From Polynucleobacter sp. 80A-SIGWE (GTDB lineage: Bacteria; Pseudomonadota; Gammaproteobacteria; Burkholderiales; Burkholderiaceae), in NCBI RefSeq assembly GCF_018882295.1, contig NZ_JACVOR010000002.1, positions 744,001 through 808,000 of the forward strand: 64,000 bases of DNA, read 5' to 3'. Below the pieces are notes generated by a model, which had not been told where the DNA came from, did no database searches, and was given only the letters and a program-made list of their open reading frames with translations. The position numbers and the translations under genes are program-made. Positions within the stretch are counted from its first letter, which is position 1. Every line of letters begins with the position of its first letter. Of the stretch, positions 35,480 through 64,000 are shown piece by piece.

Positions 35480-35566
35480 ATTTCCCCGTCCTAGACTGAA
35501 GCACTCTTCGCTACTTGATTTTGGTCACCCAACTTGGCGTGAATTCGTGGTTAAATTAGCTCTAAG

Positions 35567-37650
<2,084 letters not shown>

Positions 37651-61695: not shown

Positions 61696-61739
61696 GCGTA
61701 ATTCATTCAACATTGTGTTTTAGACAGCTTTTTACTTAT

Positions 61740-62966
61740 ATGACTGCATTTTACTTGAGCAAGCCCTACGATCCGCCACAGGCACCCCAAAACCTTCCAC
61801 TAGATCGCCCATGGGCTCTTCTAGGGGGCAATAGCCCTCAGCAGTTCATGAAATCCTATTGGCATAAAAAGCCACTTTTAGTCCGCGGCGCTATCCCCGC
61901 CTTTGAACTCGCCAAGCGCATGGGCGAACCACTGGACAGTGCAATATCTGCTGAAGACTTATTCAAAATATCAAGCAACGACGCGGTTGAATCTAGGTTC
62001 ATCAAAGCAAAGCCTTGGGCCTTTACGGATGGTCCATTCAAAAAGAAATCGATCCCTTCACTTGACTCACCAGACTGGACTCTACTGCTTCAAGGAATGG
62101 AAGCACGACATCCTGCTGCTGCAAAAATTCTTTCTTGGTTTCGCTTTATTCCAGATGCGCGCTTAGATGATTTGATGATCAGCATTGCTGGTCCTGGTGG
62201 TGGCGTTGGTCCGCACTTTGATTCTTACGATGTATTTTTAATTCAGATGTCAGGGCGCAGACGTTGGCGCATTTCAGAGCAGAAGGATTTAAGCCTGAAC
62301 CCCGACCTTCCATTGAAGATTTTGAAGCGCTTTCAAGTCGAACAAGAGTGGGATCTGGAGCCGGGTGACATGCTTTATCTGCCACCACACATTGCCCATG
62401 ATGGCATTGCCTTGGATGCAGGTTGTCAGACCTGGTCGGTTGGATTTAGAGCCCAAAGCTATAAAGAAATATTGCAGGAAGGTTTATGGCGTTTAGCAGA
62501 ATCTCTTGAAGATATTCCAGAGTTAGAAAAGCGCTTTGCTGACCCCAAGCAAACCGCAACTTCTCAAGCTGAGCAACTTCCGCAAGAGCTCATTAAACAA
62601 GTAGCGCAAAAATTAAATAGCTTAAAACTGGACCGCATAGAAAACTTCCTCCCTGGAATTGCAGCCTACCTCAGCGAGCCAAAACCCCAGGCCTATTTTG
62701 ACGGAAGTGCGCACGATCTTTCGCCTGAAGAATTTGTGATTCAGCTTGCCAAAAAAGCTGTAAAGCCACACCCTCAAACAAGACTCTTAGTTTTAGGCGC
62801 CAAGGTGTATTGCAATGGTGAAGATGTAACTACAGGGCAAGCTAGTGGGATAAAAAAGGTCTGGCGCGCACTTGCCGCTAAGAAGCAATTTAAGGGCTCT
62901 ATGGGTAAGATTGAGGCAAATAATAGCCTTTTTGACGCATTTGAGGCCGGCTGGTTGGTTTTTTAA
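61740..62966 (+). CDS. roxA: Ribosomal protein L16 arginine hydroxylase RoxA (cupin/JmjC)
   Basis: Fe(II)/2-oxoglutarate oxygenase that hydroxylates an arginine of ribosomal protein L16 (YcfD in E. coli). 408 aa from the ATG at 61740. Iron ligands His159 and Asp161 in GPHFDSYDVF and His220 in PPHIAHDG. N-terminal WHKKPLLVRGA is typical. C-terminal winged-helix region beyond ~290 fits the ribosomal oxygenase family. Confidence 0.92.
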   Translation: MTAFYLSKPYDPPQAPQNLPLDRPWALLGGNSPQQFMKSYWHKKPLLVRGAIPAFELAKRMGEPLDSAISAEDLFKISSNDAVESRFIKAKPWAFTDGPFKKKSIPSLDSPDWTLLLQGMEARHPAAAKILSWFRFIPDARLDDLMISIAGPGGGVGPHFDSYDVFLIQMSGRRRWRISEQKDLSLNPDLPLKILKRFQVEQEWDLEPGDMLYLPPHIAHDGIALDAGCQTWSVGFRAQSYKEILQEGLWRLAESLEDIPELEKRFADPKQTATSQAEQLPQELIKQVAQKLNSLKLDRIENFLPGIAAYLSEPKPQAYFDGSAHDLSPEEFVIQLAKKAVKPHPQTRLLVLGAKVYCNGEDVTTGQASGIKKVWRALAAKKQFKGSMGKIEANNSLFDAFEAGWLVF

Positions 62967-62991
62967 CTCCCGATTGGGAGATGGCTATAAT
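62963..62991 (+). promoter_or_regulatory. Promoter of the Ala/Pro-rich lipoprotein gene
   Basis: TTAACT (62963-62968), 17 bases, perfect TATAAT (62986-62991). The -35 overlaps the roxA stop codon. A start near 62998 leaves a leader of about 84 bases that is almost wholly base-paired. Confidence 0.65.
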
Positions 62992-62999
62992 GTTTGCTG

Positions 63000-63055
63000 G
63001 AAAGTACCTAAGGGGTAACCCTGTACTTTCTAAGTATTAATAACCGGTTATTAAT
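63000..63055 (+). promoter_or_regulatory. Two-hairpin 5' leader of the lipoprotein gene
   Basis: Hairpin 1: GAAAGTAC (63000-63007) pairs with GTACTTTC (63023-63030), enclosing a 3-base bulge and an AGGG/CCCT stem closed by a GTAA tetraloop. Hairpin 2 is a 20-base perfect palindrome (63036-63055, each arm ATTAATAACC). The ribosome binding site (AGAGGAA, 63068-63074) is left unpaired downstream. Confidence 0.6.
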
Positions 63056-63081
63056 GATAATTTTTTAAGAGGAAATTACAA

Positions 63082-63261
63082 ATGAAGAAGTCACTCGCAC
63101 TCGTAGCAATGTTGGCAATCGCTTTGGCCGCTTGCGGTAAAAAAGAAGAAGCAAAACCTGTAGAAGCTGCTCCTGCTGCTCCTGCTGCTGCTCCTGCTGC
63201 TGACGCTCCTGCTGCTGCTCCAGCTGCACCTGCTGCTCCAGCTGCTGACGCTAAGAAGTAA
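63082..63261 (+). CDS. Small Ala/Pro-rich lipoprotein, 59 aa
   Basis: 59-residue frame with AGAGGAA upstream. Signal peptide MKKSLALVAMLAIALAAC, lipidated at Cys18 (LAAC), then KKEEAKPVE and a low-complexity A/P tail (APAAAPAADAPAAAP...) ending DAKK. The mature part is an extended, likely disordered spacer of about 42 residues. A promoter, a structured leader and a strong terminator make it a well-defined single gene. Resembles small, abundant lipoproteins that tether or coat the outer membrane; no family recognised. Confidence 0.8.
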   Translation: MKKSLALVAMLAIALAACGKKEEAKPVEAAPAAPAAAPAADAPAAAPAAPAAPAADAKK

Positions 63262-63276: not shown

Positions 63277-63304
63277 AAAAAAGCCGCTGAAAAGCGGCTT
63301 TTTT
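63277..63304. terminator. Terminator between the lipoprotein gene and bamC
   Basis: Perfect 12-base stem AAAAAAGCCGCT (63277-63288) and AGCGGCTTTTTT (63293-63304) with a GAAA tetraloop. Symmetric A/T runs let it act on both convergent genes. Confidence 0.92.
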
Positions 63305-63332
63305 ATTGTCCATTATTTTTGAATCTAATTGA

Positions 63333-64000
63333 CTATCGAGACATCTGCTCCGTAAGCAAAGTCAAGAGCTGTAATCCAGCCGCAGTATTTTCTGGTTTAC
63401 CGTCAGCGCCTTGAACATAGATATTTGAAGAATTCTCACCGGTTGATTTAACCAGTACGAGATACTTCTTAGCCTTGAGGCTAGAGTCATCTTTACTGCT
63501 AAATAAATTGGAGAAGAATCCTTTGGTATCACCCAAATCCTTTGGATTAACATAACGAACATAGTAAACACCGTTCGCACGATTGCGATCTTCAACAGTA
63601 AAGTTAGAACGATCCAAAGCGAGCCCTGTGTCACGCCATGTGCGATCAAAGCCTGCAGCCATTTCAATATGGGCGGTATTAACACCCTCCTGCACCAACT
63701 TAGCTTTCGGTGCCTTCGGGGCTAACGGAGCTGCAATTTGAGCCTTGGCCATCTCCTGAGTCATACCAAGACGTTCCATTAAACGAGCCAAAAATGCTGC
63801 TTCAAGTTCAGGATCATTTGGGCGAGCAGTCCAAACGGTGTAGTTACAAGCATCGCTATTATCGCGCACGCATTTTTCAATCATGCCGCGTTGAGTAATA
63901 TACACTTCAGTTTGATTTGGCTTACTTGCTTCCAGGCGAGTTTTATAGCGATCCCGCTCCCCTGTGTCGTAGATGGAATCCAGGACGCTACTCAGCGCCT
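63333..64000 (-). CDS. bamC: Outer membrane assembly lipoprotein BamC, N-terminus outside window
   Basis: The frame stays open to base 64000, so the true start and signal peptide are beyond the window; about 222 codons are seen. Conserved BamC segments: DSIYDTGERDRYKTRLE, TEVYITQRG (upstream end) and the second helix-grip domain with FDRTWRDTGLALDRSNFTVEDRNRANGVYYVRYVNP. Accessory lipoprotein of the BAM complex, partner of BamD, which is also in this window but 54 kb away. Confidence 0.9.
   Translation of the reverse strand, partial: ALSSVLDSIYDTGERDRYKTRLEASKPNQTEVYITQRGMIEKCVRDNSDACNYTVWTARPNDPELEAAFLARLMERLGMTQEMAKAQIAAPLAPKAPKAKLVQEGVNTAHIEMAAGFDRTWRDTGLALDRSNFTVEDRNRANGVYYVRYVNPKDLGDTKGFFSNLFSSKDDSSLKAKKYLVLVKSTGENSSNIYVQGADGKPENTAAGLQLLTLLTEQMSR

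Follow-up and report, generated by a model that had tools for sequence, protein, structure and literature searches.

The question raised by this locus is why the leader of a tiny lipoprotein gene should be made up almost entirely of two adjacent hairpins. The locus lies near one end of the window, by which we mean the whole stretch of 64,000 nt from Polynucleobacter sp. 80A-SIGWE that was analysed, and its features are collected in Table 1. In our best reading, the leader is an uncatalogued, conserved two-domain RNA element of the conserved mRNA leader RNA class. We put the probability at roughly one half that this element combines an ompA-like protective 5′ hairpin (domain 1) with a docking hairpin (domain 2) and tunes the mRNA of a single lipoprotein. 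The preliminary description had proposed an mRNA stabiliser or a cis-regulatory RNA, and this remains the best class of explanation.

Table 1. Features of the lipoprotein leader and its surroundings, in positions of the window
Feature	Position	Strand	Evidence or remark
Promoter, sigma-70-type, TTAACT-17-TATAAT	62963..62991	+	10/12 consensus matches
Predicted transcript start	near 62998	+	inferred from promoter spacing
Domain 1, 5′-terminal hairpin	62998..63032	+	sequence, fold, end-pairing across lineages
Domain 1 outer stem, 8 bp, GAAAGTAC/GTACTTTC	63000-63007/63023-63030	+	
Domain 1 CUA (DNA: CTA) bulge	63008-63010	+	
Domain 1 inner stem, 4 bp, AGGG/CCCT, GUAA loop	between outer-stem arms	+	
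Domain 1 base: U-A/G-U extension of stem	within 62998..63032	+	
Domain 2, 20-base perfect palindrome ATTAATAACCGGTTATTAAT	63036..63055	+	sequence, fold, covariation, related UUACCGGUAA hairpins
Domain 2 hairpin: 8-bp stem, self-complementary CCGG loop	63036..63055	+	sequence, fold
AU-rich spacer containing six-U run	63058..63066	+	T-rich in Polynucleobacter leaders too
Shine-Dalgarno region AAGAGGAAA	63067..63075	+	sequence; predicted weak pairing with U-tract
59-aa Ala/Pro-rich lipoprotein gene (MKKSLALVAMLAIALAACGKKEE...)	63082..63261	+	translation; lipobox
Likely intrinsic terminator AGCCGCT-GAAA-AGCGGCT-TTTTTT	63282..63305	+	sequence alone; absent from the list of the terminator scan
JmjC_2/cupin gene, upstream synteny anchor	61713..62966	+	Pfam match
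BamC-like lipoprotein gene, convergent, synteny anchor	63333..63998, cut by window end	-	PF06804

The letters of the sequence bear out what had been described at first, namely a near-consensus promoter, two adjacent hairpins (one with outer and inner stems of 8 and 4 bp around a GTAA loop, the other a 20-base palindrome) and a tiny Ala/Pro lipoprotein. The translated protein has a lipobox, LAAC, at residues 15–18, and no Pfam match in the search of the window genes. The upstream JmjC_2/cupin gene is one that we take to be RoxA-like. From its sequence, the lipoprotein mRNA is likely the transcript of one gene, about 310 nt long, that ends at the downstream terminator. The promoter scan gave three matches where 2.4 were expected, so that the match by itself does not exceed chance.

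When the leader RNA (62998–63084, 87 nt) was folded, it reached −22.3 kcal/mol (z = −3.08), and 2 of 200 dinucleotide shuffles were as good. The excess was smaller when the whole transcript was folded (z = −1.78, 12 of 200 shuffles as good). The ribosome site, which had been described as free, is predicted to be weakly paired with the U-tract, both in the minimum-energy fold and with a mean pairing probability of 0.55 at 37°C. This pairing was nearly independent of temperature in the prediction (0.62 at 5°C), and the predicted pairing of the domain 2 stem was 0.95 at 15°C, 0.89 at 25°C and 0.66 at 37°C. An RNA thermometer on the ribosome site was rejected, because domain 2, although predicted to loosen when warm, does not hold the Shine-Dalgarno region.

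A DNA search matched the leader in 111 of the 151 Polynucleobacter genomes, the window's own included, some of the matches being weak or off-locus (e.g. G150:C31); G052, G062 and the second matching contig of G129 were not fetched. Because a DNA search selects for similarity, a protein search with the upstream JmjC_2 protein was added. It found this protein in 139 of the 151 genomes and supplied a further 30 regions, of which 27 came from genomes that the DNA search had missed. Gene order is strict: the JmjC_2 gene is the upstream neighbour of the lipoprotein gene in 104 of 105 loci, and in 102 of 105 the BamC-like gene follows downstream. Throughout, the sequence groups denote likeness of sequence, with no tree behind them.

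In all 133 orthologous loci read, an exact TATAAT was present 65–125 nt before the start codon. Left out of this set were L025/L145 (altered start codon), L094 (end of contig), L112 (off the locus) and L144 (gene start unrecognised). The leaders had a mean folding z of −1.60 over the 133 loci, with 68% below −1; the controls gave −0.17 (equal-length DNA before the promoter, 132 loci) and +1.39 (coding sequence of the lipoprotein, 133 loci). These controls, together with the shuffle z-scores and the end-swap permutations of domain 1 described below, led us to reject chance hairpins. The Ala/Pro tail of the lipoprotein is variable in length (proteins of 39–77 aa in L001–L114), and the signal peptide and a GKKEE motif are mostly constant. 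In G108 (L025/L145), an ATA stands at the start codon of the lipoprotein gene, and the JmjC_2 gene upstream of it is disrupted; the leader is retained.

The element is tied to one gene. A search with a 16-mer gave 29 sites in 28 of 61 Polynucleobacter genomes, and all 29 were at the lipoprotein leader (two contig ends in G028). The 12-mer ATTACCGGTAAT was present exactly once in each of 29 genomes of genus g3, presumably Cupriavidus, and in each of 16 genomes of genus g24. Each of the 27 g3 sites fetched is situated in front of the lipoprotein gene; three fetched sites of other genera lie elsewhere. The AT-richer Polynucleobacter genomes, the window's own among them (C1:970139), sometimes have an extra 12-mer elsewhere. 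A repeat or a regulon site was rejected on the basis of these genome site searches.

The element is not confined to Polynucleobacter; we also found it in Cupriavidus, Oxalobacteraceae and Sphaerotilaceae. In a protein search over the family, 91 of 249 genomes were matched, many of them through low-complexity stretches. The core GCGATAATTACCGGTAATTATT was present in 12 of the 19 loci that could be read among 20 fetched family regions (L185–L196), at 58–61% GC; the gene in the twentieth, L179, was not recognised by the script. Genus g11 (L182–L184) has a GC-rich hairpin in place of the CCGG palindrome, UACGCUG-ACC-CAGCGUA in L182 and L183 and a variant of it in L184.

The pattern ATTACCGGTAAT-N24..54-ATGAARAARTC occurred in at least 119 stretches of named genomes, where about one (0.91) was expected by chance. 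Among the 119 matches listed, 117 encode a small MKKS.. lipoprotein and 111 have TATAAT upstream; the remaining two, from a Clostridium and from an Acidobacteria MAG, code for proteins of no relation to it. The lipoprotein matches listed belong to Burkholderiales taxa, four being MAGs labelled Betaproteobacteria only, and their carriers include Cupriavidus, Paraburkholderia, Massilia, Duganella, Janthinobacterium, Undibacterium, Oxalobacter, Noviherbaspirillum, Herbaspirillum, Roseateles, Rhizobacter, Sphaerotilus and Rubrivivax. The lipoproteins behind the element in other genera are of a similar MKKSL.. kind. Because this pattern itself demands an MKKS start, the tie to the gene rests on the bare 12-mer and 16-mer searches. 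A stricter pattern, TTACCGGTAA followed by ATGAARAARTC, matched 7 of 300 genomes sampled over the order (4 of 9 from the window's own family f1 and 3 of 9 from family f8) and none of 274 over the class; it misses the window's own genome, where the core reads TAACCGGTTA. The strict element is therefore a trait of part of the order, as most sampled families and the class sample were without a match.

The palindrome of domain 2 is usually UUACCGGUAA. The window and the loci nearest to it have ATTAATAACCGGTTATTAAT, many other loci have AACAATTACCGGTAATTGTT or a near form, and a further group has CAATTATCGATAATTG. The leaders of ten Polynucleobacter loci (L119–L121, L125–L129, L139 and L143) share an invariant CCGGTCTAAATCACCGTTAGATGATTAGCTAATC and have another perfect palindrome, GATTAGCTAATC; L141 also has GATTAGCTAATC, behind a CGGC-GCAA-GCCG hairpin. 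No clear palindrome was present in L122, L131, L132, L134 and L135.

For covariation, 9 of 152 loci failed to align with the core (below 9/14 matches), and 10 of 62 unique rows were dropped as gapped or doubtful (L028, L102, L103, L104, L118, L119, L124, L142, L180 and L181), so that 52 were left. The central pairs were complementary at ten of ten positions in 35 of 105 loci and at nine in 46 more. In the stem, 82.9% of cells were paired, compared with 75.0 after shuffling, and 37 cells, which count sequences and not events, were changed on both sides, compared with 16.4 ± 2.7 after shuffling (0 of 500 shuffles). The covariation score was 0.206; when the partner was slid by +3 columns, 0.192 was kept, and the signal was lost with slides of 1 or 2. 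On either side of the palindrome, the flanks pair as well, leaving internal loops of unequal size, and their changes go together, as in GGUUC/GAACC and GGGUC/GACCC (18 of 5000; the first 80 of the 119 loci). This flank test weakened with stricter representatives, giving 15, 48 and 227 of 5000 for 30, 20 and 15 representatives, respectively (117 lipoprotein loci).

Two properties of domain 2 count against a pure and simple RNA hairpin. Among the mismatches in the stem, A-C (22 cells) outnumbered G-U (6 cells), and by 4 to 1 in the inner five pairs, whereas a plain RNA hairpin should favour G-U. In addition, the dyad symmetry crosses the loop, where symmetric changes from C-G to U-A occur, and a simple hairpin needs neither. 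Judged from the aligned letters, the symmetric changes in the loop and the excess of A-C mismatches would fit a DNA dyad or an mRNA dimer.

If domain 2 were a DNA operator, a dimeric transcription factor on the transcribed dyad would block elongation and the RNA hairpin would be a by-product. This would explain a dyad that in many loci is perfect across its centre, its symmetric changes (C-G to T-A in DNA), A-C mismatches no rarer than G-U, and a near-invariant sequence retained in higher-GC genera. We consider it unlikely, however, for several reasons. An operator typically recurs at several promoters of a regulon, whereas here there is one site per genome, confined to the lipoprotein gene bar the scattered 12-mers (three surroundings checked), and no regulator gene adjoins the leader within the window. 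In L142, L144, L105 and L107, loop variants (ACCGG, ACAAA and ACAAAA) alter the half-site spacing and the CAAUU(A)/(U)AAUUG stem is kept intact. Complementary flanks with unequal internal loops would be useless in DNA, and the distance from the core to the −10 element varies from 47 to 96 nt.

The same symmetry would fit a device for mRNA homodimerisation, in which CCGG loops would meet and open into a duplex of 16–20 bp, so that the abundant mRNA is silenced or cut by RNase III. Such a device fits the dyad in the loop, the symmetric changes, a weak AU stem kept at 58–61% GC, the single copy per genome and the predicted dimer (−26.9 kcal/mol at 37°C, where the two separate hairpins reach −6.6 kcal/mol), although energy models favour the dimer of any palindrome and the value is no proof. 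Palindromic-loop RNA dimer initiation sites form kissing hairpins, and domain 2 would share with them a self-complementary loop on a hairpin, here with a loop of 4 and an AU stem and with a dimer that is a prediction. We regard this reading as quite improbable. If it were true, the lipoprotein mRNA would sense its own concentration.

Domain 1 was conserved in a different manner. Its sequence types, CUGGAAACUACCUAGGGAUAAUCCCUUGGUAUAUCCAG, GGAUCUGAGUUGUAUUGCAUCCGCAAUAUGCACUCAAGGUC, GUGCGGGGAAACCCGCAC and UUGGAUAUAAAUCCAA, differ by group and the hairpin stays; as far as the letters go, this turnover of sequence with a retained hairpin would fit a structural role. In 49 representatives of 190 leaders, the native ends paired with −11.5 kcal/mol and swapped ends with −7.83 kcal/mol (0 of 5000 permutations). 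Without the Polynucleobacter-type short leaders, the values were −9.45 and −7.18 kcal/mol, respectively (0 of 5000; 30 representatives of 104), and the result also held in the short leaders alone (22 representatives), in which the two ends of 20 nt can share as many as a few bases. The set of 49 took in L180, whose core is doubtful, and the repeat tests excluded it. The mean z of domain 1 was −2.03 over the 49 representatives, domain 1 having been excised beforehand, a step that helps its ends to pair with each other. Thirty-eight were below −1 and 11 above it, Cupriavidus forms among the latter (L235, +1.47; L241, −0.29). The first paired base lay 0–4 nt into a stretch starting 5 nt after TATAAT in all 49, the stretch having been cut at that predicted start before folding. 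RNAalifold found only three pairs in an alignment of 95 leaders; in 37 Oxalobacteraceae-type leaders it recovered domain 2 but only two pairs of domain 1. The check suggested in the preliminary description, for compensatory changes in both stems of orthologous leaders, spoke for a conserved, structured leader, with covariation in domain 2 and native ends that outpair swapped ones in domain 1.

Sequence inertia, that is, shared ancestry of an intergenic region without function, would account for much of the similarity within Polynucleobacter, which is inherited, and the covariation cells count sequences and not events. It is nevertheless scarcely credible in view of the folding controls, the covariation shuffles, the end-swap permutations and an AT-rich core retained in loci of 58–61% GC.

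In four Oxalobacteraceae leaders (L239, L253, L255 and L307), AGACGAC is predicted to pair either with GUUU plus UUAGG/CCUAA or with GUUGUCU, and these mutually exclusive pairings might act as a conformational switch. Together with the structured leader itself, they are what speaks for a metabolite riboswitch or an attenuator, which we judge very unlikely. An attenuator would have a GC-rich hairpin with a U run immediately behind it, whereas domain 2 is AU-rich and the U run comes 5 nt later; no intrinsic terminator was called between leader and gene in the terminator scan of the window. The sequence of domain 1, moreover, is not conserved between lineages, and the gene encodes a small lipoprotein, neither a transporter nor an enzyme.

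The evidence from both domains is best accommodated by the two-domain leader stated at the outset. A hairpin at the predicted transcript start and the consensus −10 element of each ortholog read suggest an mRNA that is strongly transcribed and protected at its 5′ end. The sequences show the conservation, the predicted structure, the covariation, the promoter and the tie to a single gene; we infer that transcription would begin at the predicted start, that the leader would stabilise a highly expressed mRNA, and that domain 2 would meet a trans factor or pair with itself. Domain 1, at or near the predicted 5′ end, would most likely shield the RNA against entry of RNase E in the manner of the ompA leader, so that a strongly transcribed small mRNA could persist. 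Domain 2, which is weak, AU-rich and nearly fixed in sequence, would most likely dock a trans factor, either an RNA-binding protein or an sRNA, its alternative partner being a second copy of the same RNA; docking would then adjust translation or decay of the lipoprotein mRNA. Codon evidence for high expression of the lipoprotein is mixed. GCT or GCA make up 26 of its 27 Ala codons, where a ribosomal-protein region has 80% and the window genes have 60%; CCT makes up 6 of its 8 Pro codons, whereas the ribosomal-protein region prefers CCA (0.66). Growth of repeats could lie behind both biases.

Control might also be post-transcriptional only, with an envelope-stress sRNA or an Hfq/ProQ-type protein that represses translation from domain 2 or the spacer, and with stability as a secondary effect. 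The abundant envelope mRNAs of Escherichia coli are sRNA targets (ompA/MicA and lpp/MicL), the sequence of domain 2 is nearly fixed in several genera, and an AU-rich spacer separates the hairpin from the Shine-Dalgarno region. An sRNA that paired with the whole core would itself carry the self-complementary UUACCGGUAA, yet the 12-mer occurs once per genome in two genera. We hold this form of control to be rather unlikely.

The supposition that no named element has this layout agrees with our Rfam scans and literature search. No Rfam 15 family exceeded its gathering score at the leader; with E-values up to 5 allowed for leader and gene, the best match in the leader scored 18.8 bits where 55.5 are needed, and no family was over threshold at 8 further loci and 10 more loci. 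The Rfam scan of the window did give a TPP riboswitch match above gathering score (35565–35672, plus strand) and three tRNA genes elsewhere. A known Rfam family, Polynucleobacter-1 (RF01718) included, was rejected for want of a match above threshold; RF01718 gave no match in the window's own genome either, in a weak search that also found none in control genomes. In open-licence literature, the element was not found reported in titles, abstract openings and passages. It would add an RNA element of Burkholderiaceae, Oxalobacteraceae and Sphaerotilaceae to a group with little-known post-transcriptional control, and it flags an unnamed lipoprotein as worth study. The presence of the same short hairpin in genera with culturable strains makes it testable why its sequence, beyond its shape, is kept.

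Other structured RNA candidates are known from Polynucleobacter, namely the Polynucleobacter-1 RNA and the icd-II, carA and HRC-28-1 motifs. Passages of a 26-genome study (PMC8632094) place the latter three at icd, at carA and near rpiA, that is, at other genes, and RF01718 has no match in the leader; the Polynucleobacter motifs named in passages of that study and of Weinberg et al. 2010 (PMC2864571) lie at different genes or find no match here. Stem-loops at the 5′ end that protect mRNAs are known, according to passages of PMC7509114. Among these, the ompA leader stabiliser of E. coli likewise places a 5′-end hairpin on an envelope-protein mRNA with the Shine-Dalgarno sequence downstream; the present leader adds a second hairpin with a near-fixed palindromic core, and the two are likened by layout, with no claim of sequence relation. 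The stem-loop in the rne 5′ UTR, through which RNase E is autoregulated, is described in the same passages and is likewise a conserved hairpin of a leader that acts in cis upon a single mRNA, whereas the gene here is that of a lipoprotein.
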